This document shows, piece after piece, positions 48,697-64,000 of a stretch of DNA of 64,000 nt. This DNA comes from Vagococcus carniphilus (GTDB lineage: Bacteria; Bacillota; Bacilli; Lactobacillales; Vagococcaceae): positions 2,186,001 to 2,250,000 of the forward strand of contig NZ_CP060720.1 of assembly GCF_014397115.1 (NCBI RefSeq). Direction: 5' to 3'. The notes under the pieces are model-generated. The model saw only the letters and a program-made list of their open reading frames with translations, did no database searches and was not told the origin of the DNA. A program made the translations under genes and the position numbers. Numbering within the stretch: position 1 is the first letter of the stretch; every line of letters begins with the position of its first letter.

Positions 48697-50085
48697 TTAT
48701 TGAAAAATATGAGTTAACTGCTGCATGATTTCTTCCATTTCGCCTTCTCTAATGGTTCGTACATCAAACCAAACACAATTATTTTTTACACGAGTGATAA
48801 TTGGTAAATCATTTTTTCTTAATTTTTCTTCCAATTGTGTTGTACTTAAATCGTCACTTGAAATACCTACTAACTCAGTTGAAAGCTGGTATTCTGGATA
48901 AGAACCTCCGCCAACTTGACTCTTTCCAGCTTCACGTTTAATTTGAATTGGCCATTTAGTTGAGCTTAGTTTTTCTTCAAAAGATTTTGCCTCTTCTAGA
49001 CACTCTTCATAACTTTTACTAATCATTTGAAGTGTTGGTATTTCCTGAACTGCAACTTCTGGTTCTAAATAAAGAGAAAGCGTTGCTTCTAGGGCACTCA
49101 ATGTTAATTTATCTACTCTTAACGCTCTTAACAGCTGATTTTTTTTCATTGGTTCAATAAATTCTTTTTTCCCAACAATCACACCAACTTGAGGGCCACC
49201 AAGCAATTTATCGCCACTAAACATAACCACATCACAGCCTTGATCCAGACTTTCTTTAATCGTCGGTTCGTATGGCAAACCAAATTGTTGCATATCTATT
49301 AGTAAACCACTGCCTAAATCATTAATAAGAGGAATGTCGTGACTATGCGCTAGTTCAGCCAATTCAGTTATTTCTGGTGACTCAGTAAAACCGATTACGC
49401 GGTAGTTACTTGTGTGAACTTTCATGATAGCTCCTGTTTCTTCTGTTATCACTTTTTCATAATCTTTTAAATGTGTTTTGTTAGTAGTACCTACTTCTTT
49501 AATCATCCCACCACTTAATTCGATTACTTCTGGAATTCGAAACGAGCCACCTATTTCAACTAACTCACCTCTAGAAATAACAACCTCTTTGTTAGGAATT
49601 AATGTACTTAAAGCAAGCATCACAGCTGCTGCGTTGTTGTTAACAACAACAACATCCTCAGCACCTGTTAGTTTTTGAATAATTTTTTCTAAATGTTGAT
49701 ATCTAGAACCGCGCTCACCTTTTTCTAAGTTATACTCTAAATTAGAGTAAGAAAAAGCTGAGGTTTCAAGTTGTTCCTTAACTCTTGAACTTAAAAGAGA
49801 ACGCCCTAAATTTGTATGAACGATTGTCCCGGTTGCATTAATAACACGTTTTAGAGAAAAGTCATCTGTATCTTTTTTCTCATTAAGTATCATATGAATA
49901 ATTTCTTCTTCAGTGGGTAGATTCACTAGTTCATTCGAAACAAAACTATTTCTGATATTTTCCAGCAAATGCCTAATTGTCTCTTTCCACACATTCGGAG
50001 ATTCTTTAACTCGTTCTTTTAAATCTGGATGTTTTAACAAATAATCTACAGAAGGTAAATTAGCTAATTGTTTAAAATCGACCAT
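48697..50085 (-). CDS. selA: L-seryl-tRNA(Sec) selenium transferase SelA
   Basis: PLP enzyme converting Ser-tRNA(Sec) to Sec-tRNA(Sec) with selenophosphate. 462 residues: N-terminal tRNA-contact domain (LPSVDYLLKHPDL, RRVINATGTIVHTNLGRSLLS-like KRVINATGTIVHTNLGRS), PLP lysine in FSGDKLLGGPQVGVIVG, and RALRVDKLTLSALEATL. Last gene of the selD-yedF-DUF3343-selB-csd-selA run; its start overlaps the stop of the desulfurase gene by one base. Required for the two selenoproteins PrdB and PrdC. Confidence 0.96.
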   Translation of the reverse strand: MVDFKQLANLPSVDYLLKHPDLKERVKESPNVWKETIRHLLENIRNSFVSNELVNLPTEEEIIHMILNEKKDTDDFSLKRVINATGTIVHTNLGRSLLSSRVKEQLETSAFSYSNLEYNLEKGERGSRYQHLEKIIQKLTGAEDVVVVNNNAAAVMLALSTLIPNKEVVISRGELVEIGGSFRIPEVIELSGGMIKEVGTTNKTHLKDYEKVITEETGAIMKVHTSNYRVIGFTESPEITELAELAHSHDIPLINDLGSGLLIDMQQFGLPYEPTIKESLDQGCDVVMFSGDKLLGGPQVGVIVGKKEFIEPMKKNQLLRALRVDKLTLSALEATLSLYLEPEVAVQEIPTLQMISKSYEECLEEAKSFEEKLSSTKWPIQIKREAGKSQVGGGSYPEYQLSTELVGISSDDLSTTQLEEKLRKNDLPIITRVKNNCVWFDVRTIREGEMEEIMQQLTHIFQ

Positions 50086-51248
50086 TACGCTGTCACTTCC
50101 TTACTCAATTCATTTATTGCTTTAATCGCTACTTCAACTTCCTCTAAAGTATTGAAAGTAGAAAATGAAAAACGTAATGTTCCTTGATCTTTTGTTCCTA
50201 AAGCTTCATGCATTAGTGGAGCACAATGATAGCCAGGTCTTATTGCAATCCCATAATCCTCCCAAAGAACATCACTCACAGTTGCCGAATCAATGTTTTT
50301 TAGATTAATCGAAACCACACCTGCTCTTTCAGCTGTAAAATCACCATAGATTTCAATTAAGGGATTGTCTTTAATCCCTGAAATGAAGACATTAGCAAGA
50401 TCGTTAACATATTGATGAATTGCTTTCACCCCACGTTGATTCACATAATCAATACCAGCCCCTAACCCCTTAATACCTGCTACATTCAATGTGCCAGCTT
50501 CAAGAAGAATTGGCAACTCTCTTGGTTGGATTTTAGAAAAAGTTTGCATCCCGTCACCACCTGAAATTAGTGGTGTTAAATCTTTTTCTAGTTCTCTTTT
50601 TAAGCAAATACCGCCAGTACCTGTTGGACCATATAAAGATTTATGACCAGTGAAACAAAAAGCATCAATGATCCCATCTTCTAAAGAAACAGGATATTGT
50701 CCCATCGTTTGCGAGCCATCAATAATTAGCCTTAGTTGATGTTTCTGAGCTATTTTTTTAACTCTCTTTAAATCCATAATATTTCCTGTTACATTCGAGC
50801 CATGAGTAACTAGTAAAGTTGTTGTTTCTTTTTTTATTGTTTTTTCTAAAAAATCAAAATCTAACATACCTGTTTTTAAGTCACTTGGTACCACATCAAA
50901 AGTTACTTTTTTTTCTTCAGCTAATTGATATAGAGGTCTAAGAACCGCATTATGTTCCCAAGAAGTTGTTACAACATGCTCACCTTCTCCAATGAGACCT
51001 TTAATCATCATATTAAGGGACAAGGTGGCATTATTAGTAAACGCGACTTCATATTGATTACTAGCTTCTAATAACTCTTTAATTTGTTGTCTAACCATAG
51101 AAACATCTCTAAAACTATTTAAGGAAAAATCATGACTGCCACGAGCAGGATTGCCAAATTCACCAGAAAGAAGGGTTTCACAAACAGCTTGCGCTACCTC
51201 TTTTGGTTTAATCGCTGTTGTTGCTGCATTATCAAAATAAATTGACAT
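50085..51248 (-). CDS. Cysteine desulfurase-family protein of the selenium cluster
   Basis: Class V aminotransferase-fold PLP enzyme, 387 residues: IYFDNAATTAIKP, THGSNVTGNIMDL, CFTGHKSLYGPTGTGGI (PLP lysine) and RPGYHCAPLMHEALG (catalytic Cys). Its family (TIGR01977-like) is regularly found beside selD/yedF and is thought to liberate selenium or sulfur for selenophosphate synthesis. Located between selB and selA with very short gaps. It could also act as a selenocysteine lyase; no evidence here distinguishes these. Confidence 0.9.
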   Translation of the reverse strand: MSIYFDNAATTAIKPKEVAQAVCETLLSGEFGNPARGSHDFSLNSFRDVSMVRQQIKELLEASNQYEVAFTNNATLSLNMMIKGLIGEGEHVVTTSWEHNAVLRPLYQLAEEKKVTFDVVPSDLKTGMLDFDFLEKTIKKETTTLLVTHGSNVTGNIMDLKRVKKIAQKHQLRLIIDGSQTMGQYPVSLEDGIIDAFCFTGHKSLYGPTGTGGICLKRELEKDLTPLISGGDGMQTFSKIQPRELPILLEAGTLNVAGIKGLGAGIDYVNQRGVKAIHQYVNDLANVFISGIKDNPLIEIYGDFTAERAGVVSINLKNIDSATVSDVLWEDYGIAIRPGYHCAPLMHEALGTKDQGTLRFSFSTFNTLEEVEVAIKAINELSKEVTA

Positions 51249-51259
51249 CGCATTTTCAC

Positions 51260-53152
51260 CTAACCTTCCATTAGTTCTCTTGTATTCTCAACTCGTTTAG
51301 TTACTTTTTTCTCATCTAAATACTCTAAAATAAGCATTGAGGATTTCCGACTAGAATCTGTCATATCTCTAAAATCTGCTAAAGTCATTGCACCGTTTTT
51401 CTGAATAAAATCTTTGACTAAATCGACTGATTTCAAATAATATTTTTTACTAATAACATATTCAAACGTTAAAGAGACTACCGATTGATCTTCCAACATT
51501 TCTAATACATCGCGACCATTCTTAGCATCTAGAGCTTCAAGTTCTTCTTTCTTGATTGGTGTAAAACCAGATTTTTCAAGTTTTTTCTCAATGTCATTTT
51601 TTACTTTTTCTTGGTATTTATTAAGTTCAACTTTAAAATCAGAATGAGATAACCGATGATTATTTAATTGGAAAACGCCTTGTTCGACAAATAATTTTAC
51701 TAATTTATCTAACTGCTTTGGTGTTAAGAATTGTTTTACTTTTGAGCGAATTTCTTCTAACGGCATACCAGGTCTTAAACGAAAAGCTTTATGATACGTT
51801 TCAAGTTCTTGATAAATCATTTTTTCAATTTGTTGAAGTTTATTTACATGAATCCACTCTGTTTCAGATAGTTGAATTAATAGTTTTTCCTCTAACAACG
51901 TCTCAAGCATTCCTTGTACTGTTTCTTTTGGAAGATTCATATAATCACAGATATCTTTCAAACTACCAACAATAGCCTGTTGATTTAATAAGAAATCTAA
52001 AATCAAATGATCTAGGTTACCTTCTTCTTTAACCTTCAAGCTATCTAGAACATCTTGTTTGAATCGACGATGTTTACTAGGTACCGCATCTAAAATCTGC
52101 CCTCCACCGATAGTAACCATTGGAGAATAAGCTCTCATAATAAAACGATCACCTGTTTTAACAGCTAATTGTTCTTCTAAACGTAATTGGACAAAACCTT
52201 CTTCCCCTGCTTCAATTCTTTCTTGTCCTATTGGAACCAAGCGAGCAAAGACTTCTTGCGTTCCAATTAAAACTCGTACTCTATCCCAAAGGCTAAAACC
52301 GAATTTAACATCTTCCAAACAACTTACTTTAGCATCAAGCATCCATGTTGCTTCAAGTGCTGCTCCATTAGTTAAAACATCTCCACGGGAAATTTCATCT
52401 TTAGAGATATTAGTTAAATTAAGGGCTGTTCTTTGACCAGAAAAAGCTTCTTTTTTATCAGTTTCATGAACTTGAATCGTTCTAATTTTTGTTTTTTTAC
52501 CACTTGGAAAGACCGTTAATTCATCTCCTACACGGAATGTACCATCAATCAATGTTCCTGTGATAACCGTTCCAAATCCTTTAACTGAAAAGACACGGTC
52601 CACATTTAAACGCCCCACTTCTTGAACTGTTTTTTCTGGAATGGTTTCAGCCAAGTCTTGGATAGCTAATTTCAATTCATCTAATCCAATCTTCTCAACT
52701 GCATCTGTTTCAATCAAAGGAGCGTCTTTTAATGCTGTATCAGCCAACTGCTCTCTAATATCCTCTTTTACCAATTCTTTTAAATCTTCATCCACTGTTT
52801 GGCACTTCGTTAACACAATCATGAAATGTTGAATTCCTAATAAACTCAAAATATCAATATGTTCTTTGGTTTGTGGCATAATTCCTTCAGCTGCGTCAAT
52901 TACCAGTAAAATTAAATCAATTCCTGGAAGACCTGCAACCATGTTTTTGATGAATTTTTCATGTCCTGGAACGTCAACAATACCCACACGTTGTTTATTC
53001 GGTAAATCTAAATAAGCAAAGCCTAAATTAATCGATAAGCCTCTAGTTTTTTCTTCTTTTGTCGTATCTGTTTCAATACCTGTTAATCCTTTGATTAATG
53101 TTGTTTTACCGTGGTCAATGTGTCCTGCGGTTCCAATTACAATATCTGCCAT
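51260..53152 (-). CDS. selB: Selenocysteine-specific elongation factor SelB
   Basis: GTPase that brings Sec-tRNA to UGA codons marked by a SECIS hairpin. 630 residues: G1 GTAGHIDHGKTTLI, G3 DVPGHE, G4 TKCQ; EF-Tu-like domains II/III (GFGTVITGTLIDG), then C-terminal winged helices (about 370-630) that bind the SECIS. Full length compared with E. coli SelB (614). Six bases after the DUF3343 gene. Its presence and intactness support decoding of the TGAs in prdB and prdC. Confidence 0.96.
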   Translation of the reverse strand: MADIVIGTAGHIDHGKTTLIKGLTGIETDTTKEEKTRGLSINLGFAYLDLPNKQRVGIVDVPGHEKFIKNMVAGLPGIDLILLVIDAAEGIMPQTKEHIDILSLLGIQHFMIVLTKCQTVDEDLKELVKEDIREQLADTALKDAPLIETDAVEKIGLDELKLAIQDLAETIPEKTVQEVGRLNVDRVFSVKGFGTVITGTLIDGTFRVGDELTVFPSGKKTKIRTIQVHETDKKEAFSGQRTALNLTNISKDEISRGDVLTNGAALEATWMLDAKVSCLEDVKFGFSLWDRVRVLIGTQEVFARLVPIGQERIEAGEEGFVQLRLEEQLAVKTGDRFIMRAYSPMVTIGGGQILDAVPSKHRRFKQDVLDSLKVKEEGNLDHLILDFLLNQQAIVGSLKDICDYMNLPKETVQGMLETLLEEKLLIQLSETEWIHVNKLQQIEKMIYQELETYHKAFRLRPGMPLEEIRSKVKQFLTPKQLDKLVKLFVEQGVFQLNNHRLSHSDFKVELNKYQEKVKNDIEKKLEKSGFTPIKKEELEALDAKNGRDVLEMLEDQSVVSLTFEYVISKKYYLKSVDLVKDFIQKNGAMTLADFRDMTDSSRKSSMLILEYLDEKKVTKRVENTRELMEG

Positions 53153-53157
53153 AAGCC

Positions 53158-53418
53158 CTAGCCAACCTTTCTATACGTCATGTTAAGACCTTTACCACTT
53201 GCATGATAGTACGCCTCATATAAAACTTTCTCTTGATTAAGTAAATTTAAAATTTCTTCTTCTGAATCAATCTCATATTTTAAAGAAAATCCGCAACTAG
53301 CCTTTATCTTTTCTGGTGTTGAAATGATTCGAGCCGGTAAGTTTAATTCTTTCAAATGCTTTTCTGCCTCCATTGCATGATGGGTTGATTCAAATAATAG
53401 AACACCGTACTCTTTCAT
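53158..53418 (-). CDS. DUF3343 small protein (putative Se/S carrier)
   Basis: 86-residue protein with the DUF3343 pattern (YGVLLFESTHHAMEAEKHLKELNLPARIISTPEKIKASCGFSLKYE); the single conserved Cys in ASCGFSL is the presumed chalcogen-carrying residue. Family members accompany yedF and selD genes in selenium-using bacteria and are annotated as putative Se/S carrier-like proteins. Between yedF (11-base gap) and selB (5 bases). Precise role unproven. Confidence 0.85.
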   Translation of the reverse strand: MKEYGVLLFESTHHAMEAEKHLKELNLPARIISTPEKIKASCGFSLKYEIDSEEEILNLLNQEKVLYEAYYHASGKGLNMTYRKVG

Positions 53419-53429
53419 CTCAAATCCTC

Positions 53430-54029
53430 CTAAGGTTTAACCACTTTAATGGCTGAACTCATCATTTCTACAATACGATACATATTAGTTACTTCACCAA
53501 TTGCAAGTTGTTCTGTTAATCCATAAAAATTCAAACAAGCGCCGCAAGCATAAATAGTCACACCTTGTTCTTCCATTTGCTTCAAATCATCTAAAACATC
53601 TGAGCCTTCAACAGCAAGTTTAACGCCGCCATTATAAAAAATAATGGTTTCAGGCAATTCATCTTGCTCTAATAATGAATAAACAAATGCTTTCATTAAA
53701 TTAGCTCCTAATTCATCAGAGCCTCTTCCCATAACTGCCGTGTCAATTGCTACGGTATAACCAATTTTTTCTGATACTAAATTTTCTACCTCAGGAGTCT
53801 CTTGAATCTCAATTTCAGCCCCATCTTTACTAATTATTACCACAAAATGAGTTGCTGAAAGTTCTTCTCTTGTATAGTTTAATCCTAATTGTTCTGCTAA
53901 TTTTTTTAAATTTTGAGTCGCTATGTCATTATCTACAACTGTTTTAACACTTTCATTTTCCTTTAAGGCTTTTTTAGTTTTAATAACTGGTAATGGACAA
54001 GCCATTCCTCTTGCATCTATTTCAAACAT
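53430..54029 (-). CDS. yedF: YedF-family selenium metabolism protein (TusA-like plus DsrE-like)
   Basis: 199 residues from the ATG after AAAGGTGAG. N-terminal TusA/SirA-like domain with the CPxP motif (MACPLPVIKTKKAL) and C-terminal DsrE/F-like domain with a conserved Cys pair in YACGACLNFYGL. Such fusion proteins are encoded beside selD in selenium-using Firmicutes and are proposed to shuttle selenide or persulfide. Overlap or near-overlap with selD supports one transcript. Confidence 0.9.
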   Translation of the reverse strand: MFEIDARGMACPLPVIKTKKALKENESVKTVVDNDIATQNLKKLAEQLGLNYTREELSATHFVVIISKDGAEIEIQETPEVENLVSEKIGYTVAIDTAVMGRGSDELGANLMKAFVYSLLEQDELPETIIFYNGGVKLAVEGSDVLDDLKQMEEQGVTIYACGACLNFYGLTEQLAIGEVTNMYRIVEMMSSAIKVVKP

Positions 54030-54045
54030 AATTATCTCACCTTTC

Positions 54046-55068
54046 TTATTTAACAATCATTTCATTAGTTGTTTTTTCAATAATTTGACCAAAATCTTTA
54101 GCAGGAATTCCTGCTTCTATTAATTCTTTAACTAAATTTTCTGCTTCATCCTCAGCAATACTAATAAGAAGACCACCTGACGTTTGAGGATCAAATAATA
54201 ATTCCTCAATACCAAAATCATCTATTTCAAAAGACACGAAATCAGCTAAATAGTTTCGATTACGTTGACCTCCTGCTGTTAAAATAAATTCTTTAGCTCC
54301 AGTATAGGCCTCTTTAAAATAAGGTAAATTGTTACTTTCAATCACTGCTGAAAATTCTCCATGAAGCATCTCATGTAGATGGCCTAATAGACCAAAACCT
54401 GTCACATCTGTACAACTATTAACTGGGTATTTTTTAGCAATATCCATCGCATACTTATTAAGGGTCTGCATATAACCAGTTGCCTCTTCAAATGCCTCTT
54501 GACTAATTTCTCCTACACTATACCCTGTAGTAATTACGCCTACACCAAGTGGTTTAGTTAAAATCAAATGATCTCCTATTTGACCAGCATTATTCATTAA
54601 AACTTCTTCTGGGCGTGCTGTTCCTGTTACTGATAAACCGTATTTTACCGAATGATCATGAATTGAATGACCTCCCGCTAAGATACCACCAGCTTCTTGA
54701 ACCTTTTCAGCTCCACCTCTTAAAATTTCTTTTAATATATGAAAATCTTTTTCTTCTGGAAAAGCAACAATATTCAGGGCTGATAAGACGGTTCCACCCA
54801 TAGCGTAAATATCGCTTAAAGCGTTGGCTGCTGCAATTTTTCCAAAAAGATAAGGATCTGTTACCATAGTTGGGAAAAAATCCAGGGTTTGAATCAATAC
54901 TTGATCATCGCTTATTTTGATAACAGCTGCATCATCTGTATTTTCGAAACCGACTAATAATTTATCACTCGTTACTTTTGGTAGATCTGCTAATAAATCA
55001 CCTAAATCTCCTGGTCCAATTTTTGCATTACATCCACCACATACAATTAATTGTTCTGAATTTTCCAT
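54046..55068 (-). CDS. selD: Selenide, water dikinase SelD (Cys form)
   Basis: Makes selenophosphate from selenide and ATP, the selenium donor for SelA. 340 residues: active-site loop VCGGCNAKIG with Cys where many SelD proteins have Sec; ATP motifs GFENTDDAAVI, GGHSIHDHSVKYG, CTDVTGFGLLGHLHE and DPQTSGGLLISI. First gene of the selD-yedF-DUF3343-selB-csd-selA operon, with a long inverted repeat upstream. Intact. Confidence 0.95.
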   Translation of the reverse strand: MENSEQLIVCGGCNAKIGPGDLGDLLADLPKVTSDKLLVGFENTDDAAVIKISDDQVLIQTLDFFPTMVTDPYLFGKIAAANALSDIYAMGGTVLSALNIVAFPEEKDFHILKEILRGGAEKVQEAGGILAGGHSIHDHSVKYGLSVTGTARPEEVLMNNAGQIGDHLILTKPLGVGVITTGYSVGEISQEAFEEATGYMQTLNKYAMDIAKKYPVNSCTDVTGFGLLGHLHEMLHGEFSAVIESNNLPYFKEAYTGAKEFILTAGGQRNRNYLADFVSFEIDDFGIEELLFDPQTSGGLLISIAEDEAENLVKELIEAGIPAKDFGQIIEKTTNEMIVK

Positions 55069-55090
55069 ATTGTCATCTCCTATTATCTAC

Positions 55091-55133
55091 TAAAATAACA
55101 ATACCATAAAAACGCTATTATATTGTTATTTTA
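55091..55133. promoter_or_regulatory. 13-base inverted repeat around the selD promoter
   Basis: TAAAATAACAATA (55091-55103) and TATTGTTATTTTA (55121-55133) are exact complements. On the minus strand TATAAT overlaps the inner edge of the right arm and may be the selD -10; no convincing -35 was found. It could be an operator or an RNA hairpin. Confidence 0.5.
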
Positions 55134-55153
55134 AGGGATAAAATAAAAAAGAA

Positions 55154-55186
55154 CGAAAATAAAGGTTAAAAAGAGCTTTATTTTCG
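55154..55186 (-). terminator. Terminator between the prd and sel operons
   Basis: CGAAAATAAAG pairs with CTTTATTTTCG; on the minus strand followed by TTCTTTTTTATTTT. Confidence 0.88.
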
Positions 55187-55199
55187 AACTTATTATATA

Positions 55200-56072
55200 T
55201 TATGCTGCTGTTTTTCTGCTCTTTAAGATATAAGTAATACCTGTATAAATAATAACGGCAATAATAACCCAAGTTAAAACATCCATTGGCATATTAGTAA
55301 CAAAGTTAGCTGCAATTGCTACCCCAATAACACCACCAATAATGATACCAATTGTTCCTTTTCTTGAATAATTACCGTTTTTAATAAACTCAACTCCAGC
55401 AACTGGCATTAAACCAGCACAAGAAGCCATCATAATTGGAAATGCAATCAATGGATTAAGTCCTAACATATAAACCATTGCCATACATGGTGCATAAAGT
55501 CCAACACCAATTGTCATTAAAGCACCAAAAATGAAGTTTCCTACAACACCAATAACTAATTTAATACCAGTTAAAGCTGTTGCTGTATTACCAGCACCTA
55601 ACATATCAAGCCAACCTAATTGTCTAGCTGCCATTAAAAAGGCAGTTACAACTAAAGCTAACCCAATATAAAGTTGTACTTTCTTTTCAGGTAATTTAGC
55701 TACAGTTTTAGAGCCTACCCAAGAACCTACAATTGCTGCAAATACAAGGGATAATAAAGTAACTGGTGAAACATCTACTACTTTAATGAAGATAAATGCT
55801 TCAATCATTACAGGAATTGTATGAGCTATATTAAGCGTTCCTGGAATTTTTTTATCATCATCCATGTATTTTGTTAATTGAAATAACATTGTCGTTGGTG
55901 CGAAACTACCAATTCCTAAAGTATCCAAAAAGTCTGTAACAAAGCCTATTCCGACAGCTATCGGAAGACTTTCATTTCCTAAATTAGATTTGTTTGCGAT
56001 TAAATCTTTTACTAAGAAGACTGTATAGTAAAGAAGTAATAAACCTAAAATACCTAATAATACTGCTACCAT
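55200..56072 (-). CDS. TSUP (TauE/SafE) family membrane transporter
   Basis: Integral membrane protein of 290 residues, about eight helices, with the family's duplicated pattern (VGIGFVTDFLDTLGIGSFAPTTMLF and GVGLYAPCMAMVYMLGLNPLIAFPIMM). TSUP proteins move sulfite, sulfoacetate, organic acids or other anions. It is the last gene of the prd transcript, 19 bases after prdF. Substrate unknown; export of a 5-aminovalerate product or uptake of a selenium/sulfur species are both speculative. Confidence 0.85.
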   Translation of the reverse strand: MVAVLLGILGLLLLYYTVFLVKDLIANKSNLGNESLPIAVGIGFVTDFLDTLGIGSFAPTTMLFQLTKYMDDDKKIPGTLNIAHTIPVMIEAFIFIKVVDVSPVTLLSLVFAAIVGSWVGSKTVAKLPEKKVQLYIGLALVVTAFLMAARQLGWLDMLGAGNTATALTGIKLVIGVVGNFIFGALMTIGVGLYAPCMAMVYMLGLNPLIAFPIMMASCAGLMPVAGVEFIKNGNYSRKGTIGIIIGGVIGVAIAANFVTNMPMDVLTWVIIAVIIYTGITYILKSRKTAA

Positions 56073-56091
56073 ATGTGTTCTTCCTTTCTAT

Positions 56092-57108
56092 CTAACCTAA
56101 AACAAATCCATCTTTAAGAGGATCTTTTGGATCAATTAAAAATGTATTAAATCCGTTAATATTTGCTGAACCTGATACGCGAGGAATGATTGCTTTGTAA
56201 TCACCTAAGTCAGCTGTACGTACAACTTCCCCTTTAAATTTAGTTCCTAAAATACTTTCGTAAACAAATGTATCGCCAACGCCCATTTCACCTTTCGCAT
56301 AAAGAGTTGCTAATTTAGCACTTGTTCCAGTACCACATGGTGAACGGTCAACTTGTCCATCACCAAAAACAACAACGTTTTGATAAGTTGCATCAGGACT
56401 AGTTGCTGGTCCATAGATTTCAACTAAATCAACTGTTTTAATGTGTTCTAACGTAGGATGTTGGATTTCAATTTGTTCGTTTACTGCATCTCTGATTTTA
56501 ATTCCTAAATCTGAGAATTTAGATGCATTTTCAGGTTTAATTTCTAAGCCTAAATCAGCTGCTGGAAGAATAGCAAAGAAGCTACCACCAAAAGAAATAT
56601 CAATTGTTAATTCACCAATTTCTGGTACATTAACTTTCACGCCTTCTTTATAAAGGAATGATTCAACGTTTTCAAAAGATACTGATTCTGCATAGTAATC
56701 TTCACTTAAATGTACTTCTCCATGAACAATTCCTGCAGGTGTATCTTGAACAACTTTTACTTCTCTTTGACCAGGTTCTACATCTACCCAACCAGTTTCA
56801 ACAGCAGCAGTCATTGCTGCAATTGTATTATGTCCACACATATTTAAGTAACCACCAGCATCCATAAAGATAATACCGTAGTCCGCTTCATCGTGAACTG
56901 GCTCACAAATAAATGCCCCAAACATTTCATTATGTCCTCTAGGCTCATGCATAATTGACGTTCTTAAATAGTCTTTTTGTGTTTCTAAATATTCTTTCTT
57001 TTCAGCCATTGTTTTTCCTGGGAATTTTGGAATTCCCCCAATAACTAAACGAGCTGCTTCTCCAGCTGTATGTGTATCAATAGCTGTCATCATTTTTGAA
57101 AATTTCAT
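56092..57108 (-). CDS. prdF: Proline racemase PrdF
   Basis: Interconverts L- and D-proline and so supplies D-proline reductase. 338 residues; both catalytic cysteines are present in NMCGHNTIAAM (about residue 91) and SPCGTGTSAKLA (about 257), with DAGGYL and GSFFAI near the substrate site. 4-hydroxyproline epimerases share the fold, but the second Cys and the placement inside the prd cluster identify proline racemase. 30 bases after prdE. Confidence 0.95.
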   Translation of the reverse strand: MKFSKMMTAIDTHTAGEAARLVIGGIPKFPGKTMAEKKEYLETQKDYLRTSIMHEPRGHNEMFGAFICEPVHDEADYGIIFMDAGGYLNMCGHNTIAAMTAAVETGWVDVEPGQREVKVVQDTPAGIVHGEVHLSEDYYAESVSFENVESFLYKEGVKVNVPEIGELTIDISFGGSFFAILPAADLGLEIKPENASKFSDLGIKIRDAVNEQIEIQHPTLEHIKTVDLVEIYGPATSPDATYQNVVVFGDGQVDRSPCGTGTSAKLATLYAKGEMGVGDTFVYESILGTKFKGEVVRTADLGDYKAIIPRVSGSANINGFNTFLIDPKDPLKDGFVLG

Positions 57109-57138
57109 TTTTTATAAAACTCCCTTCCAAAAAGTTAA

Positions 57139-57609
57139 TTACCTTTTATCTTTTCTCATTTTTAATTTAATTGATGCAAGCGCTTTATTTGCGTCGCGAT
57201 AATCAATTGTATTTTCTCCTACGACTTCCGTTTCAATCCCTTGTTCGGATTTATTAAAATCAAGGACAAAATCAGTATAACTATTCTCAACTACAAATTT
57301 CGCTTGTTTTCCGATAAACTTCAAACCGATTACGCTGACATCACGTTTTCCTATTTCTTCCAATGTATTGGCAAAATCAACATCTGAGTTACCCCAGCCA
57401 TCCGTTGAAACGATTGCTCCATCACAACCCATACTTTTTACCCAAGTTGCTGCTCTGTTTCCCACAAAATGTTTCATTTTATTGCTTTGCGGGGTTCCTA
57501 CTACTACAACTCCTAAAAAGTTAATATCTGGATCATTAGATAAACAATCAACTAATGGATCTCTAAAATGGTGTAGGGTAGTTTCTTTCGTTGAAGGTCC
57601 TATTCCCAT
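57139..57609 (-). CDS. prdE: D-proline reductase-associated protein PrdE
   Basis: 156-residue homologue of the C-terminal (post-cleavage) part of PrdA: MGIGPSTKETTLHHFRDPL corresponds to CIGPASKETSRHYWREPL of PrdA, and FLGVVVVGTPQSNKMKHFV, AAWVKSMG-like TWVKSMGCDGAIVSTDGWGNSDVDFA follow. The residue aligned with the pyruvoyl-forming Cys is Gly2, so it should not generate a pyruvoyl group. Start ATG with weak site AAAGTGGG. It lies 30 bases after, and in the same frame as, prdD. Role in the reductase complex unproven. Confidence 0.88.
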   Translation of the reverse strand: MGIGPSTKETTLHHFRDPLVDCLSNDPDINFLGVVVVGTPQSNKMKHFVGNRAATWVKSMGCDGAIVSTDGWGNSDVDFANTLEEIGKRDVSVIGLKFIGKQAKFVVENSYTDFVLDFNKSEQGIETEVVGENTIDYRDANKALASIKLKMRKDKR

Positions 57610-57639
57610 AGATATCCCACTTTCTTTTTCACAATAACA

Positions 57640-58380
57640 TCAGACCATAGCTCTTATGGCACCATCACGATATTCATTTGGTGAAATAATAACTGGCACA
57701 TTGTTCATATCAATAATTGATGTTCCGCCTGTAAAACCACTTGGTTCATCAGGAAATACCATTGTGTCATACATAGCACCTTGACCTGCTACCTGTTTCA
57801 CAAGTGCAACTCTAGGTTTACCTTCATTAAATGTTTCAACAAAGGTATGTACTTCCGTAGCATTTCGTCCATCCATCATTTTTAGTGCTTCTCTTATTTC
57901 TTGAATATAATTGTCAGTAATTTCAAACATCTTTAAACATAACTCGCGTGTGAATTTTGCCTCAGGGTAAGCTAGCATATCTATATGGATAATATAGTCA
58001 TCATCTGTAGGCGTTCCTACACGGTTCAGTTGTAAATTCTCTGACAAAATTCCTTCTGAAGAACCAAATTCATGCATTTGTTCTCCATCTTCTATCGCTC
58101 CTGTTAACACAACATAAACACCCGTTAAGGTATGCGTGATTCCATCACCAAGTTGCCCCAACACTTTTGTGGATATTGGAATAATATCCATAATTGTGTT
58201 GGTGCGAACATCGTGATGCTTAGGAGTTAAAAGCTGGATTGTCATTTGCTTAATATCTTCTTCTTCAAAAGAATGATTGGTTTTAATTTGTAAGGCATTT
58301 GGGTCTAATTGAAACTTATCTCCTGATGTAACTGTGTTCATATGAAAAGCTTTAATTTTTAATTCTTTCTGACTCATCAT
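57640..58380 (-). CDS. prdD: D-proline reductase-associated protein PrdD
   Basis: 246-residue homologue of the part of PrdA before its cleavage site: NTIMDIIPISTKVLGQLGDG, HEFGSSEGIL, VAGQGAMYDTMVFPDEPSG and NVPVIISPNEYRDGAIRAM align with PrdA (DIMDVQPIATK-like, GEFGSSEGEL, IMGQGAMHDNLIMPVEPVG, LPVILAPTEVMDGGIHAL). It ends with TGA exactly where PrdA is processed. No SECIS-like hairpin follows that TGA, so it is treated as a stop. Part of the prd transcript; function unknown. Confidence 0.88.
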   Translation of the reverse strand: MMSQKELKIKAFHMNTVTSGDKFQLDPNALQIKTNHSFEEEDIKQMTIQLLTPKHHDVRTNTIMDIIPISTKVLGQLGDGITHTLTGVYVVLTGAIEDGEQMHEFGSSEGILSENLQLNRVGTPTDDDYIIHIDMLAYPEAKFTRELCLKMFEITDNYIQEIREALKMMDGRNATEVHTFVETFNEGKPRVALVKQVAGQGAMYDTMVFPDEPSGFTGGTSIIDMNNVPVIISPNEYRDGAIRAMV

Positions 58381-58421
58381 TCAACCCAGCTTTCATTTCA
58401 ATAACTACTAACCCTTACCCT

Positions 58422-59147
58422 TTAAACGTGTGCAATGTACTCGTAAGGTAAACTAACAATTTTTCCTGGAGTTTCAATTGCTACTAATTCTTTTAATGTA
58501 TCTTTTAAGATACCTGTTTGCATTTCAATATTATGTGGTTCCCCAGCATTTGCACCCATTGGTACAAGTGGAGCAACCGCTCTAGGTGAACCATTTTGAC
58601 GCACTACTGGAGGTAATGCGGCGATTAAAATTGTAGGAATTCCTGCTTCCTCAATAGCTCTCTGCACGATCACGGCAGTTCTGTGGCAAGTCCCTCAACC
58701 AGCTGTTAAAACAACTGCGTCGACGCCTTCGTCCACTAATTTTTGAGCAATTTCTGGACCAGTTACATCGTGAAATGCTTCTTGGTCTCCCCCACCACCC
58801 ATGAAACCAAAGTGCATAGGTGCTACTTCTTTAATGAAGCCTTCCTTAGCAAGTTCATGTAAGCGATCGATTGGGAACATAGCGTTCACGTCACGGTTAA
58901 CGTCTGCATTATCATAACCACCGTGAGACACCATTAATTCGTCTGTTGTTGCAGTATCTGGAATTTCTCTATAAGAAGTATCCCCTGCTAAATTAAATCT
59001 TGCATCTGTTTTCAAATGTACTCCGGCTGCTGTTGCCATTGCTACACGCATTTCTTTTAACTCTTTTTTCACAGGAGTAAAAATTGATTTTGGTGTAATA
59101 GGTACATAAATTTCTGATTGTAAACCTTCAAAAACCGTTAAACTCAT
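58422..59147 (-). CDS. prdB: D-proline reductase selenoprotein subunit PrdB (in-frame TGA = Sec151)
   Basis: Catalytic subunit that with processed PrdA reduces D-proline to 5-aminovalerate. 241 residues if TGA codon 151 (58695-58697) is read as selenocysteine; the sequence around it is LTAG-Sec-GTCHRTAVIV, matching the known Sec-x2-Cys-type active site of PrdB. Reading through gives one uninterrupted protein; stopping gives a 150-residue fragment without a C-terminal half. A small hairpin starts 17 bases after TGA, the usual bacterial SECIS distance, and selA, selB and selD are downstream in the same region. Homologous to the glycine/sarcosine reductase B subunit family. Three bases after the CBO2463-family gene. 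Confidence 0.95.
58662..58678 (-). promoter_or_regulatory. SECIS-like hairpin in prdB
   Basis: Minus strand CTGCCG-TGAT-CG(T)GCAG, a six-pair stem with one bulged base, located 17-33 bases after the TGA codon. The apical loop TGAT lacks the GGU of E. coli SECIS, so identity rests on distance and context. Confidence 0.6.
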
Positions 59148-59150
59148 GGT

Positions 59151-59444
59151 TTAAATCTCCTCTCGTGTTTTCATCATATTTTCTTGTCTTCTTTGATGTT
59201 CTGTTATTGCGTTGACATAATGTTCGTTAGGATTTTCATCTAAAACTTCTGGATATGACATCATAAAACCAACCTCTTGGCCAATTTTTACATCATATTC
59301 TGAAATTAACATTCTTCTAGGAATTTTAAACTGTCCCAAACGACCTTTAATATCAATCGTAACACTTGCATCGGTAATATCTACTAGAACGCCTTCAAAC
59401 ATTCTCTCTGTCGATAAGTATTTTAATTGATCTATTCTATCCAT
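59151..59444 (-). CDS. CBO2463/CBO2479-family small protein of the proline reductase operon
   Basis: 97-residue protein, not enzymatically characterised. MFEGVLVDITDASVTIDIKGRLGQFKIPRRMLISEYDVKIGQEVGFMM resembles a small OB/S1-like beta-barrel strand pattern. Small proteins of this family are found between prdA and prdB in D-proline reductase clusters, which is its place here (20 bases after prdA, 3 before prdB). It may help assembly or PrdA processing; that is inference. Confidence 0.75.
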   Translation of the reverse strand: MDRIDQLKYLSTERMFEGVLVDITDASVTIDIKGRLGQFKIPRRMLISEYDVKIGQEVGFMMSYPEVLDENPNEHYVNAITEHQRRQENMMKTREEI

Positions 59445-59463
59445 CTTCTCACCTACGATTTAA

Positions 59464-61362
59464 TTATTCTTTTTCGTAAATCTCTTGACGTTTTTTACTC
59501 TTAGGTAAGATTTGTTCATTTTCAACACGTTCAACCTTTTGGCCAAGTGTTTTTTCAATGACTTCAATGTTATTTTCTTTCACATTAGGATTCCATTTAC
59601 GTTCAGCTTCTTTAATAGTTCCGCCACCCATAAGTGTTTTAAGCATAGCTAAATCACGGATTGCGTCCTCTTTACATAACGTATTATTTGAAAGAATTTC
59701 ATTTTCAATACCTTGTTTAGATTTGTTGTTATCAACCATTGCGATCATTTGTTTGTTACCAACAACTAAAGCACCTTGAACAGCACTATAAGTGTCACCA
59801 ACAACATGAATACCACGTTTACCAACTTCTTCAATATGTGAAGCAAAGTCGATATGGTTATTACCAAATCCTTCAGTTGTTACAATAGCACCATCGATAC
59901 CCATTGCTTCAACTGTCATACCTAAACGTTTTGAGACATAGTATTTTTCAGAGTTTGCTTGAGGAGAACCTACAAACATAACCCCAACTAAGTCAATTTC
60001 TTCATCATTCATTGCTTCAAGAACTAATGGTTCACGCCAATAATGACGAGAAGTTTCTTTTGAAGCTGGTCCAATACATGTTAACGCATGGATACCACCA
60101 TCCATAACTTCTGTTGGTGCTAAAATAACTGGTAAGTTACCTAAGTCAACGTTAGGTTTAGCGCCTAATGTTCCAACTGGTTCCACAGGCATGATTAAGT
60201 TATCATGCATAGCACCTTGTCCCATGATTTCTTTAATGATAAGAACTTTTTTCTTACCTGGACGACGATATTGAACTAATTCGTCTTCTTTATAAACTAA
60301 AGAGCTATCAGCAACTTTCAATGCTTCTCTAATTTGTTGAGTGATATAATCTGAAGCTTTATGAGCAGCTAGAGGTCCAGGTCTTTCCATGTTTGCGCCA
60401 GCTTTAATAGTTACTTGCGTTTTAACAAAGATTTCTCCTTTTTCAGGAGCTCCTGGGCGTCCCCACATAATGTTACGATCTAATTCACCTTCAGATGAAC
60501 CGAACTCACCAATTTGTACGCCATTTTCATCAGTACCAGTTACAACCATAACAACGCCATCAAGCACACGAGTTACCCCATGACCTAAGTCGCCTTCTGT
60601 TTTTGTTGCGATTGGTTGAACATCCATGATTGTTTCACTATATTCACCATAACGATCTGGTGTAATAATATCAATTTTCATGTCAGTTACTAATTCTTCT
60701 AATTCAACAGCTTCTGGTCCTAATACTTTAGGATCTTTAAGTGTTAAAGTAGTGCCTTCAATTTTTGTTTCTTCACCAAAGACAACTTCTTTAATTTGGA
60801 TGTGTTCTCTTTTAACCGAACGCATTTTAATTGCTTCTTCTTCAACTTCAGCTTCAACCGTTTGAGTTGCTTCTAATGAAGTTGCTTGAGCGGCTGGTGC
60901 TTCATTTTGTGCTACTAGCGCACTTTGAGTACCACCTGCCATAACGATTGGTAATTCTAAATCAATACCTTTACCTTCAGCAATATGAATTTTGATTGTT
61001 TGATTAGTTGATACTGCTGCTGTTTGTACTACTTGTGTTGGAGCAACTGCAGCTGTTTCTTCTACTGCTTCTTCAACAGTTTCTTCTACTGCTACCTCTT
61101 CTTCAATCACTTTAGCACCTTCAACTAAATCTGGTGTTAATGGAACTAAAGCATCAGTTGTTGCTAATAATTTAGCACCTAATACTTCTTCAATTGTTAA
61201 ACAATTTTCTGGGATTTCTAGTAAGCCTGAATCCTCTAAATCAGGGAAAATAGCTGGATCTTCCAAGTTAGATGGTTCAATAATGATATTTCCCTCAGCA
61301 CGACAACAAAGTACGGCTGGATCTTTTGCATGATCTTTCGCAGTTTCTACAGTAATAGACAT
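59464..61362 (-). CDS. prdA: D-proline reductase proprotein PrdA
   Basis: 632-residue precursor that is cleaved to form a pyruvoyl cofactor at Cys429 (GIHALTCIGPASKETSRHYW); the pyruvoyl group is thought to bind D-proline as a Schiff base. N-terminal 1-90 resembles the barrel-like start of PrdC/RnfC proteins; then a Glu/Ala/Val-rich linker (85-180) with acidic repeats; then the pro-beta part (about 190-428) and the alpha part (429-632, FVGSPQANSEKYYVSK, AIVTTEGFGNNHIDFASHIE). Length and layout match Clostridium PrdA (reported pyruvoyl Cys421 in C. sticklandii). Second gene of the transcript, after prdC. Confidence 0.94.
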   Translation of the reverse strand: MSITVETAKDHAKDPAVLCCRAEGNIIIEPSNLEDPAIFPDLEDSGLLEIPENCLTIEEVLGAKLLATTDALVPLTPDLVEGAKVIEEEVAVEETVEEAVEETAAVAPTQVVQTAAVSTNQTIKIHIAEGKGIDLELPIVMAGGTQSALVAQNEAPAAQATSLEATQTVEAEVEEEAIKMRSVKREHIQIKEVVFGEETKIEGTTLTLKDPKVLGPEAVELEELVTDMKIDIITPDRYGEYSETIMDVQPIATKTEGDLGHGVTRVLDGVVMVVTGTDENGVQIGEFGSSEGELDRNIMWGRPGAPEKGEIFVKTQVTIKAGANMERPGPLAAHKASDYITQQIREALKVADSSLVYKEDELVQYRRPGKKKVLIIKEIMGQGAMHDNLIMPVEPVGTLGAKPNVDLGNLPVILAPTEVMDGGIHALTCIGPASKETSRHYWREPLVLEAMNDEEIDLVGVMFVGSPQANSEKYYVSKRLGMTVEAMGIDGAIVTTEGFGNNHIDFASHIEEVGKRGIHVVGDTYSAVQGALVVGNKQMIAMVDNNKSKQGIENEILSNNTLCKEDAIRDLAMLKTLMGGGTIKEAERKWNPNVKENNIEVIEKTLGQKVERVENEQILPKSKKRQEIYEKE

Positions 61363-61413
61363 TCGAAAACTCCTCCTAATATATTTATAAATTGTATTTC
61401 TTTTATAACATTA

Positions 61414-62697
61414 TTAATTTGGTAGTCTACGATATAGCTTATGTCCAACTGCGCGAAGAACATGATCTGTATGATGATAAACTGGAACTCCTAACCTAGG
61501 AGCGACACCTAAGACGGTGTTTGTTCAATCGGAACAAGTACCTGTCAATACTACTTCGGCGCCTTCTTTTTTCATCTTCATGACTTTTTCGGCTTGACCC
61601 GGGCAAACACCCGGTTTCGAACATCTATATCGTCCATTAACCTCTACCATTCGTTTACACATTTCACTAGCAACAACTTCAGCACCCATATTGTTAGCAA
61701 TTTCTGTTAGGCGTTCTTCGGAACCACCACATTCACAGATTAATATACCAACTTTACGGCTTTCTTGTGGGAATGGCATTGCTACCAATACACCACCAGT
61801 TGTTTTAGTTACTGGGCTGGATTCTTCTCCACTACGCCCAGTCATTGGTCCACCAAGAACAATCTCACCATGAGGTTCAATATAGCCTCCTGCTTCATCA
61901 ATTAAAATTTTTACAGGTAAACCGATAGGAACATTGAAAAAGACATGCGATTCATCTTTCACTCGACCGGAAACTGTCAAGTCTTTATCAATAAATGGTT
62001 TACGATCTTCTATTGCTTCAACAATATGTTTAATTGTTTCGCTATTAGAAACCACTGTATTTACCTCAATTGGTAATTGGCCTGGTTCTAAAACAATACC
62101 TAGAAGTTCACGAATAATCATTCGTTCATCTCCAGCAGGATATATGTCAGGTAATCTAAAGACTTCAATCATCGGTTCGTCTTTAGTTGCTTTTAACAAC
62201 TCGATAACAGCTTGACGATTTTTATCTTTTATCGCAATGTAACTTTTCGGTGCTTTCGTGATTTCCATCACATATTTAACGCCGCGAATTAATTGATCAG
62301 AGTATTCTCTAATTTGTTTAATGTTATGGCTAAGTAAAGCCTCACACTCAACCGCGTTAGCAATAAAGCAGCCCTCAGGTATCTCAACGTTTAACTTAAC
62401 ATGTGTTGGAAAACCTGCGCCACCTGCTCCGACAATCCCTGCAGCTTCAATCAAAGCCAAGTTAGATGCTTCATCTTTCAACTTAACATAATCTACTTCT
62501 TGTTCTTCATTAGGAATAATAGCAATAGTTTCTTTTGTTACTTCTGAAATTTCACCAGAAATACTTGCGTGAATATTAGCTCCTAAACCATTTGGCTTAG
62601 CAATTAATTCACCTCTTTTAACAGCATCTCCTTTTTTCACTAACGCTTCACATGGAGCTCCTACGTGTTGTTTTAATGGGATATAAAATACGGTCAT
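61414..62697 (-). CDS. prdC: Selenoprotein PrdC, RnfC-like electron donor to proline reductase (in-frame TGA = Sec391)
   Basis: Electron-transfer protein related to RnfC/NQO1 that passes reducing power to PrdAB. With TGA at 61525-61527 read as Sec the protein is 427 residues, and continues TNTVLGVAPRLGVPVYHHTD to the stop TAA at 61414-61416; otherwise it stops after GTCSD. Visible parts: RnfC-like barrel (1 to about 75), Rossmann/Fe-S-region GIVGAGGAGFPTHVKL with NAVECEALLSHN (about 90-120), SLBB-like region, and a C-terminal redox segment with SMCKRMVEVNGRYRCSKPG, VCPGQAEK and TGTCSDU. First gene after a promoter region; ribosome site AGGAGGTG. Confidence 0.94.
61488..61502 (-). promoter_or_regulatory. 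SECIS-like hairpin in prdC with GGU loop
   Basis: Minus strand CTCCTA-GGT-TAGGAG: a perfect six-pair stem with a GGU loop, 23-37 bases after TGA (loop at 29-31). GGU loop and spacing resemble the E. coli fdhF SECIS. Confidence 0.75.
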
Positions 62698-62961
62698 TTT
62701 TTTTCACCTCCTGTTTTTGTGATGTTATGAGCATTTGAAGGTTAACAAATCTCGTGAACATAATAACATATCAGAAAAAAATATGAAACCCCTTTTCCAT
62801 TAATTATGTTACATTTCTTTTTAACGAGACTTTTAAGAGCTATCAACAACACTCTATATTCCTTAAGTTACTTAAATGGTTTTAATGATAAAATTCACAA
62901 ATTAAATAAAATAACGAAAAATAATTTTAAAAAAATTTGATCACTTTTCACAATTTAATAA

Positions 62962-62975
62962 TGTGTCCGCTTTCA
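62962..62975 (-). promoter_or_regulatory. Candidate cre site upstream of prdC
   Basis: Minus strand TGAAAGCGGACACA matches TGWAANCGNTNWCA at 13 of 14 positions. It lies about 265 bases before prdC and just after the activator gene stop, in the 298-base spacer. A weak sigma-A-like pair (TTTCAT, 17 bp, TATTAT) lies nearer prdC; no sigma-54-type GG/GC promoter and no PrdR gene was seen. Confidence 0.4.
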
Positions 62976-62995
62976 CGAAAACACTGAGAAAGTCA

Positions 62996-63745
62996 CTAAC
63001 TTTTTTTCAACATTTTTGCTGCTCCAATTGCTCCAGTATATTGAGCTAATGGATGGGTCCTTAATTGACGACCTGTGAAATCTTCTAGGATTTCTTTCAT
63101 GGCAACACTGCTCGATAATCCTCCTGAGAAGAAAACTAATTCATCTTGTTTTGGCGAAATTTTTAGATACTGACCATGAATTCTATGGCAAATAGAGTGA
63201 AGAACCCCTAGAGCTATATCTTCTCTAGCTTCTCCTTTAGCCGTTAAACTAATTACTTCTGTTTCAGCAAAAACTGTACACATACTATTAATTTTTATAG
63301 GTTCTGCATCTTTAACAAAGTCATCTAAATGATCTATGTCTTCTCCTAAAATTCTCATCAAAACTTCAACAAATCGGCCTGTTCCTGCCGCACATTTGTC
63401 ATTCATATTAAACTCTTCAACTTGACCAAAACTGTCCAACTTGATTGTTTTACTATCTTGACCACCAATATCGATAATACTTGTAATATCTGGATTTAAA
63501 AATTTAGCACCCTTAGCATGACATGTTATCTCTGTGATACATTTATCAGCATCAACCAGTTTTCTACCATACCCAGTTGTCACAAGTTTTGTCTCTTCAT
63601 CAAAGCCTAAAGTTTCCAAAATATCAGACATCGCTTTTTTAGGATTACCTGCTGTTAAAACTAGGGCTTGATTGATGATAACATCATCTTCCATAAGCAC
63701 CCCTTTTGTGGTCGTCGAACCAGAATCAAGACCTATAACACGCAT
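62996..63745 (-). CDS. 2-hydroxyacyl-CoA dehydratase-type activase (BadF/BcrA/HgdC, YjiL-like)
   Basis: ATP-driven single-electron donor, 249 residues. ASKHA nucleotide motifs VIGLDSGSTTTKGVL and SIIDIGGQDSKTIK; conserved cysteines for the subunit-bridging [4Fe-4S] cluster in NDKCAAGTGRF (about residue 127) and INSMCTVFAETEVI (about 166); C-terminal VFFSGGLSSS. In this family the activase reduces a partner dehydratase or double-cubane protein. It follows the partner gene by three bases. Substrate unknown; proximity to Stickland genes suggests amino-acid-derived acyl compounds or another small reduction. Confidence 0.92.
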   Translation of the reverse strand: MRVIGLDSGSTTTKGVLMEDDVIINQALVLTAGNPKKAMSDILETLGFDEETKLVTTGYGRKLVDADKCITEITCHAKGAKFLNPDITSIIDIGGQDSKTIKLDSFGQVEEFNMNDKCAAGTGRFVEVLMRILGEDIDHLDDFVKDAEPIKINSMCTVFAETEVISLTAKGEAREDIALGVLHSICHRIHGQYLKISPKQDELVFFSGGLSSSVAMKEILEDFTGRQLRTHPLAQYTGAIGAAKMLKKS

Positions 63746-63748
63746 GTT

Positions 63749-64000
63749 TTAACCTCCCATCATTTCGATAAACGCTTCAACTCTTGTGTTGATCTGTTCA
63801 ACGTCAGCATTTGAATAATCTGTTTCTAAGTAAAGATAAGGAACTTCTTTTTCATTTTGGCAGAACTCTTTAATTTTTAATGATTCAACTGAGAATGGTG
63901 TACAGAATTGTAAGACCATATCTAACACGCCATCCACTTGATATTCATCAATCATTCTATCTAACATATCGATACGAGGTTGATTATTAGAAACACACGC
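63749..64000 (-). CDS. 2-hydroxyacyl-CoA dehydratase-subunit-D/YjiM family protein, C-terminal end only
   Basis: About 83 residues at the right edge: ACVSNNQPRIDMLDRM, VDGVLDMVLQFCTPFSVES, YLYLETDYSNADVEQINTRVEAFIEMMGG. The Cys in QFCTPFSVE (Fe-S ligand) and the LETDYS ending are typical of the HgdB/YjiM family, whose members carry [4Fe-4S] or double-cubane clusters. The open frame continues to the edge, so it is cut by the window. If it is a single partner subunit followed by one activase it would fit the double-cubane (YjiM/YjiL) arrangement. Confidence 0.8.
   Translation of the reverse strand, partial: ACVSNNQPRIDMLDRMIDEYQVDGVLDMVLQFCTPFSVESLKIKEFCQNEKEVPYLYLETDYSNADVEQINTRVEAFIEMMGG

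Follow-up and report, generated by a model that had tools for sequence, protein, structure and literature searches.

Vagococcus carniphilus, a lactic acid bacterium, carries a gene of the PrdC family of D-proline reductase proteins that is interrupted by an in-frame TGA codon. Is this codon a stop or is it read as selenocysteine (Sec), which signal would guide the decoding, and how do the genes needed for it lie and move together? The window analysed was a stretch of 64,000 nucleotides (NZ_CP060720.1, positions 2,186,001 to 2,250,000); positions refer to the window unless another contig is named (Table 1).

Direct reading of the minus strand gave a frame of 390 sense codons from the ATG at 62697 to the TGA (61527..61525, codon 391), followed by 36 sense codons and a TAA (61416..61414, codon 428). 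With the TGA read as Sec the product has 427 amino acids, as stated in a preliminary description of the locus, and a plain open reading frame call yields 390 amino acids. The expectation that a standard gene finder loses the tail held for such a plain caller, but not for RefSeq, where prdC of E. gilvus and E. raffinosus is a coding sequence of 1,290 nt (WP accessions); the E. gilvus gene contains a single TGA, at codon 392. The product matched the NCBIfam model TIGR04481 (PrdC) with 599 bits (cut-off 490) over profile positions 2-424 of 425, thus the segment after the TGA is homologous to the family as well. The predicted Sec is located beside Cys-Ser-Asp, as first described, in a redox pair C388-S-D-U391 of the CxxU type, and the CPGQ site has a cysteine (residue 365). 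PrdC of V. fluvialis bH819 was 87% identical to the PrdC of the window.

Two domains were recognised. Pfam assigned a complex I 51-kDa FMN domain and an RnfC N-terminal domain. The RnfC family model TIGR01945 reached 225.5 bits, below its cut-off of 245.95, and the match ended at residue 308; PrdC shares the N-terminal NADH/FMN module with RnfC and has another C-terminal domain. The AlphaFold model (pLDDT 93.2, pTM 0.91) had RnfC subunits as nearest solved structures in the PDB (Foldseek, E 9e-30). Elsewhere in the genome, at G000:C1:2414176-2415528, a protein was encoded with two RnfC-related parts in reversed order, the FMN part first; we take it to resemble the PduS type. Predicted by itself, the C-terminal PrdC domain (pLDDT 81.5) was Cys-rich and of alpha/beta type. 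It had no match above any cut-off in Pfam and none at E 0.001 or better with Foldseek, and a known fold was not assigned from the middling Z scores of VIA-align, which reached up to 8.3 with various alpha/beta folds. An alignment of 38 sequences (A2; from 42 PrdC loci plus the window) revealed as invariant in this domain C321, C323, C347, C359, C365, C388 and C/U391 and, in the tail across Sec and Cys forms, N393, T394, A399, H408, T410, D411, L421 and R423. A further alignment (A3) comprised 29 sequences and left out L046, in which the motif searched for was not found.

Table 1. Features of the prdC locus and its surroundings; scores are given with the cut-off of the respective model.
Feature	Position	Strand	Evidence
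prdC	61414..62697	-	427 codons, Sec at 391 (predicted); RnfC-like NADH/FMN module, about residues 1-308, and Cys-rich C-terminal domain with CSDU
In-frame TGA of prdC, taken as selenocysteine (inferred)	61525..61527	-	only in-frame stop, as TGA, in 22/22 Lactobacillales carriers
Proximal helix ACACC/GGTGT, between TGA and apical hairpin	61505..61520	-	mostly implied by residues
Apical SECIS-like hairpin GCTCCTA-GGT-TAGGAGT	61487..61503	-	loop begins +29 after TGA
prdA, D-proline reductase proprotein	59464..61362	-	TIGR04480, 963.7 bits (700)
ORF with CBO2463/CBO2479 domain, between prdA and prdB	59151..59444	-	NF041553, 90 bits (50)
prdB, D-proline reductase selenoprotein	58422..59147	-	TIGR04483, 406.9 bits (300); in-frame TGA at codon 151, UGTC
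prdD	57640..58380	-	TIGR04482, 360.9 bits (320)
prdE-like ORF, presumably prdE	57139..57609	-	matches C-terminal part of PrdA
Proline racemase family gene, presumably prdF	56092..57108	-	NF010576, 531.4 bits, just below cut-off (556)
TauE/SafE-family permease	55200..56072	-	PF01925, 56.4 bits (32.6)
selD, selenophosphate synthetase	54046..55068	-	TIGR00476, 367 bits (125)
yedF, selenium metabolism protein	53430..54056	-	TIGR03527, 218.2 bits (110)
selB, Sec-specific elongation factor	51260..53152	-	TIGR00475, 350.2 bits (242.25)
Cysteine desulfurase family gene, sel cluster	50085..51248	-	TIGR01977, 385.7 bits (377)
selA, Sec synthase	48697..50085	-	TIGR00474, 594.2 bits (267.9)
tRNA-Sec	G000:C1:2252868-2252960 (L036:6869-6962)		outside the window, about 4.2 kb from prdC; 67.2 bits (gathering score 47)

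Conservation of the TGA codon

Genomes with a PrdC above the cut-off numbered 4 of 14 in the genus, 9 of 29 in the family and 22 of 395 in a Lactobacillales sample. Every one of these genes (4/4, 9/9 and 22/22, respectively) had exactly one in-frame stop, always TGA; a loss of the stem and of the frame after the TGA in close relatives, named in the preliminary description as the observation that would speak against Sec, was not found. In wider samples both states were present: three of 398 genomes of the class exceeded the cut-off, two with a TGA and one without a stop, and 16 of 398 genomes of the phylum gave 17 matches, seven with one TGA and ten without a stop. The CxxU site was occupied by Sec in 32 and by Cys in 10 of the 42 fetched PrdC loci, which did not include the listed second PrdC of genome G412. 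Full-length Cys-type genes ran on through the codon matching the TGA. In the PrdC tree (41 rows, L014 left out) the Sec and Cys forms separated once, with a branch support of 100/100; the change may have gone in either direction. A comparison with PrdC of C. difficile, suggested at the outset, led to this Cys form, the protein having Cys and not Sec at the site according to PMC3091704. A rule that PrdC of Lactobacillales is always of the Sec type was false: plasmid pMP1046A of L. salivarius encodes a Cys PrdC, whereas the prdB beside it has an in-frame TGA.

A second TGA in the operon was considered as a Sec site and rejected. The TGA at the end of prdD (57640-57642, minus strand) is in frame with prdE ten codons on, but the corresponding stop in V. 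fluvialis is TAA and several other relatives have a different frame here, indicating chance.

The hairpin downstream of the TGA codon

Behind the TGA of prdC lies a perfect 6-bp stem with a GGT loop, CTCCTA-GGT-TAGGAG (61488-61502), extended by a G-U pair (61487/61503). The stem begins about 21 nt downstream of the UGA, and the distance from the TGA to the loop is 28 nt. The bSECIS model, as summarised in a 2026 review, has a loop of 3-9 nt with a G in the first two positions, a stem of 4-16 bp, 16-37 nt from UGA to loop and a minimum free energy of -7.5 kcal/mol or lower (PMC13188914). Loop (GGU), stem (six Watson-Crick pairs and one G-U) and spacing of the prdC hairpin all fit, and the earlier view of a perfect stem at bacterial SECIS spacing was confirmed. 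Folding of the RNA, proposed as a check, gave -14.8 kcal/mol for a 48-nt stretch (z -2.5; 5 of 200 shuffles equal or better) and -5.5 kcal/mol for the 21-nt hairpin piece (z -1.5; 19 of 200 shuffles equal or better); the former is well past the limit of the model and the latter weaker than it. Taken alone, the folding energy is mildly unusual and would not decide the matter. A perfect stem of at least six Watson-Crick pairs occurs in 912 of the 36,864 synonymous encodings of VAPRLGV (2.5%).

Fifteen TGA codons in the window close open frames of at least 80 codons, and four of them have at least 30 open codons behind. Only at prdC was a 6-bp bSECIS-like stem present among these four. The accepted Sec site of prdB (58695-58697, minus strand) belongs to the same four and its best stem has 4 bp, thus the 6-bp test is strict and misses some SECIS, and a stem of this length is not required for Sec insertion in the operon. 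By this measure the SECIS elements of prdB and prdC, two genes of one operon, differ. A search with Rfam at gathering thresholds gave no matches in window positions 50000-64000, which is no argument against a SECIS. Over the Sec-type rows, 90.4% of the cells pair in the proximal helix, and three of its five pairs vary only by breaking; this helix may or may not belong to the putative SECIS.

The deciding evidence for the hairpin is comparative. The 32 loci of the Sec type, which comprise 27 distinct 60-mers, have stems of 6 to 9 pairs, and their loops begin at +28 or +29. When the same seven pairs were counted throughout, 28 of the 32 Sec-type loci formed all seven and four formed six. All 11 Cys-type genes, i.e. 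the ten fetched loci and L. salivarius, formed only 2-5. The two best of these, L081 and L. salivarius, had five of the seven pairs, discontinuous, and each had a longer stem at another place, of 9 bp in L081 and of 7 bp in L. salivarius; they might hold relics of a SECIS. The Cys-type proteins (C. difficile according to PMC3091704, the ten loci and L. salivarius pMP1046A) resemble the PrdC of the window in their domains and the full-length C-terminus, but have a Cys codon for the TGA, fewer of the hairpin pairs and other residues over the stem.

Compensatory changes, a further check proposed for the hairpin, were found in part. Of 189 cells 97.9% were paired, and none of 500 shuffles reached the covariation score. 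Three cells, belonging to two of the seven pairs, had both partners replaced (U-A to C-G; U-A to A-U and to C-G), but four of the seven pairs never vary. Sliding the alignment by -1 column raised the covariation score (0.079 versus 0.063), yet only 43% of the cells were then paired. The covariation is real but thin.

Codon choice is, as judged from the aligned genes, the stronger test of the hairpin. In 22 Lactobacillales rows, 145 columns with an invariant residue had a mean codon identity of 0.64, and 11 of them were codon-invariant: four of the five hairpin columns against seven of the 140 others (Fisher p 9e-5). The rows represent 21 of the 22 carrier genomes (L014, a near copy, was dropped, and L009 stands for L015, most likely the same genome) and the MAG L013. 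Without L118, a divergent sequence with a different loop that was left out only after the data had been seen, all six hairpin columns were codon-invariant against eight of 149 others (p 1.7e-7), and codons 399-404 were the most conserved of 418 six-codon windows; the p values of both comparisons are inexact because the rows are related. Further codon-invariant columns were located close to the TGA (390, 393, 394, 397, 407 and 411), so the codon freeze extends a little beyond the stem. At the hairpin places, the Cys-type genes had no invariant codon. In prdC of the window the single AGG codon lies inside the hairpin.

The hairpin may fix residues as well as codons, judging from the peptides encoded over the stem (codons 399-404; 61486-61503 in the window): APRLGV (28) or APRVGV (4) in the 32 Sec-type loci, and APKL (9), APKM (1) or AEKM (1) in the 11 Cys-type genes. 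The difference between APRLG or APRVG and APKL, APKM or AEKM is explicable by descent alone, since the Sec and Cys forms are the two sides of one branch. With its frozen codons, prdC is a clear example of an RNA hairpin constraining the codons, and perhaps the residues, of a protein.

Predicted decoding and electron transfer

We regard prdC as almost certainly encoding a Sec-containing electron transfer protein of D-proline reductase, with UGA 391 decoded as Sec by SelB and tRNA-Sec under guidance of the hairpin; Sec insertion in this organism itself very probably occurs. PrdC of the CxxU type, with a SECIS-like hairpin and adjoining a prdB with its own in-frame TGA, would thus be the second selenoprotein besides PrdB, which is in line with the preliminary description. 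In PrdC, an RnfC-like NADH/FMN module would be followed by a C-terminal domain that bears a Cys-Ser-Asp-Sec redox pair. Electrons would pass from NADH via the flavin to the thiol/selenol pair of PrdC and from there to the oxidised selenide-sulfide of PrdB, and PrdA/PrdB would then reduce D-proline supplied by the racemase. The reading frame, the family, the conservation of UGA and hairpin, the linked Sec machinery and the fold of the FMN module come from the present analysis. The transfer step from PrdC to PrdB was adopted from the literature: in PMC3091704, PrdC was proposed to reduce its own sulfide-selenide group with NADH and then PrdB.

A genuine stop at the TGA, with a PrdC of 390 residues and the 36 codons behind it as a relic, is extremely improbable. 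A plain ORF caller does stop the gene there, and the existence of Cys PrdC means that Sec is not essential. But the tail is conserved across Sec and Cys forms, with eight residues invariant in 38 rows, other stops have entered none of the 22 genes, and the Cys forms run on through the codon; the TGA that terminates prdD, another gene of the operon, was by contrast not kept in relatives. We also consider it very improbable that Sec is inserted but the hairpin has no role and only results, as a by-product, from the protein sequence and the codons chosen. The 2.5% of synonymous encodings with such a stem, the ordinary energy of the hairpin piece alone against shuffles and the lack of such a stem in prdB by the same measure would fit such a by-product, but it does not account for the codon freeze at the hairpin, the covarying cells and the 6-7 of seven pairs in 32/32 Sec-type loci versus 2-5 in 11/11 Cys-type genes.

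The remaining doubts concern the function of a Sec-containing PrdC. The searches with Pfam, Foldseek and VIA-align revealed no clear relative of the C-terminal domain, so its fold does not point to a particular partner, and the protein might be a general selenothiol reductase or serve in peroxide defence instead of acting on PrdB. Such a role is improbable: prdC adjoins prdA in 13/13 Lactobacillales genomes with inspected gene order, and the family model takes its name from the link to proline reductase. Electrons might also enter PrdC from ferredoxin or a membrane complex and not from NADH, in a respiratory-like chain of the kind suggested in the preliminary description. The RnfC-like N-terminal module would be compatible with such a chain, as would the ejection of protons by C. 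sporogenes when it reduces proline, reported in the title of a 1986 paper (Lovitt et al.) that PMC3091704 cites. The score of PrdC below the RnfC cut-off, the end of that match before the C-terminal domain and the absence of other rnf subunits among the identified genes of the cluster speak against it, and we hold this electron source to be unlikely. The path proposed in the literature depends on NADH, and transfer from NADH via PrdC to PrdB is the reading adopted.

The core claim, a second selenoprotein PrdC feeding PrdB, is known since 2010. Fonknechten et al. located Sec in a terminal -CxxU- motif of PrdC and proposed PrdC as reductant of PrdB (PMC3091704), the 2026 review lists a "PrdC form 1, CxxU" and a prdB-prdC operon (PMC13188914), and a review of 2022 lists the selenoprotein too; the literature consulted also included PMC9312934 and PMC5029168. 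PrdC of Clostridium (Acetoanaerobium) sticklandii, TIGR04481 "PrdC form 1", resembles the PrdC of the window in the C-terminal CxxU, the RnfC homology and a prd operon with PrdB, according to PMC3091704 and PMC13188914. The host differs in being a lactic acid bacterium, with sel genes and tRNA-Sec beside the operon. A PrdC record of Acetoanaerobium noterae, a congener of C. sticklandii, was 61% identical to that of the window. PrdC form 2 (UPGQ) belongs to the same family, TIGR04481 (PMC13188914); the protein of the window has Cys at CPGQ and, as predicted, Sec at CSDU. Less familiar is a lactic acid bacterium with PrdC plus the whole selenium-decoding kit. A survey of 2006 had almost no selenium genes in this bacterial group (PMC1794560), and a published selenoprotein family is here supported by comparison in that group. 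Literature joining Vagococcus with selenocysteine or with proline reductase was not found, which is no proof of absence from print. What the present analysis mainly adds is support for the hairpin from comparison, together with the linkage of Sec and proline reductase genes in one island.

The linked island and its likely transfer

The genes are arranged in the order prdC-prdA-orf-prdB-prdD-prdE-prdF-permease, followed by selD-yedF-DUF3343-selB-cysteine desulfurase-selA. The gene between yedF and selB we take to be DUF3343, the name it has in the E. gilvus pCR1A region. On this plasmid of E. gilvus the order is the same, prdC-prdA-orf-prdB-prdD-prdE-prdF-(permease place)-selD-yedF-DUF3343-selB-PLP enzyme-selA; it differs in being a 919-kb plasmid and in having no tRNA-Sec in the 31 kb examined. 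In V. carniphilus, the tRNA-Sec lies outside the window just before a prolyl-tRNA synthetase gene of the TIGR00408 type (proS). Between prdC and proS are located an ATPase of the acyl-CoA dehydratase activase type (62996-63745) and, outside the window, a double-cubane-cluster reductase (L036:3750-4913). This pair was also present near prd in the genomes G003, G005 and G798 and absent from the examined stretches of nine other carriers.

Sec synthase and PrdC co-occur. A selA above the cut-off was found in 41 of the 395 Lactobacillales genomes, in 22/22 PrdC carriers versus 19/373 others (Fisher test). Not all Sec use in the order is tied to PrdC: 19 of the 41 selA carriers lacked a PrdC above the cut-off. 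In 21 of the 22 carriers selA was on the contig of prdC, in 19 of 22 at a distance of 15 kb or less, and tRNA-Sec was within the fetched stretch in 12 of 13 carriers with inspected gene order, G017 being the exception. One carrier had at G1112:C2:2281122-2282234 a selA match that covers only profile positions 2-374 and is interrupted by a TAA, so either the gene is broken or the assembly is faulty.

The PrdC tree departs from the taxonomy. Holding the families f1, f3 and f195 together was rejected for each (AU p 0.0003, 0.0004 and 0.0002), as was holding the 22 Lactobacillales rows together against eight others, two of them Megasphaera (AU p 0.012); the groups are taxonomic and were named after the first PrdC tree had been seen, and the tree tested left out L014 and L009. 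Plasmids carry PrdC as well. At E 1e-80, 20 of 72,556 plasmid records contained it, from Terrisporobacter (7), Enterococcus (6), Ligilactobacillus (5), Acetoanaerobium (1) and Paraclostridium (1). E. gilvus pCR1A combines prd with selA, selB and selD, E. raffinosus pCX012922 has prd and no sel genes in the 31 kb seen, and L. salivarius pMP1046A combines its Cys-type PrdC and the prdB with in-frame TGA with selA, selB and selD. No tRNA-Sec was found in the examined stretches of these three plasmids.

On balance, the prd operon and the Sec decoding kit seem to form a single, almost self-sufficient module that moves jointly from one family of lactic acid bacteria to another, with Megasphaera also involved. 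The argument is drawn from the PrdC tree and the linkage, not from sel trees, and joint transfer of prd and sel is likely but not proven. Such a module would contain Sec synthase, the Sec elongation factor, selenophosphate synthetase, usually tRNA-Sec, and the selenoproteins PrdB and PrdC. A fermenting recipient would acquire an electron sink and the means of selenium decoding at once. With the linked island of Sec and proline reductase genes, the transfer of a whole extension of the genetic code becomes testable. Versions of the module are also located on large plasmids of Enterococcus and Ligilactobacillus.
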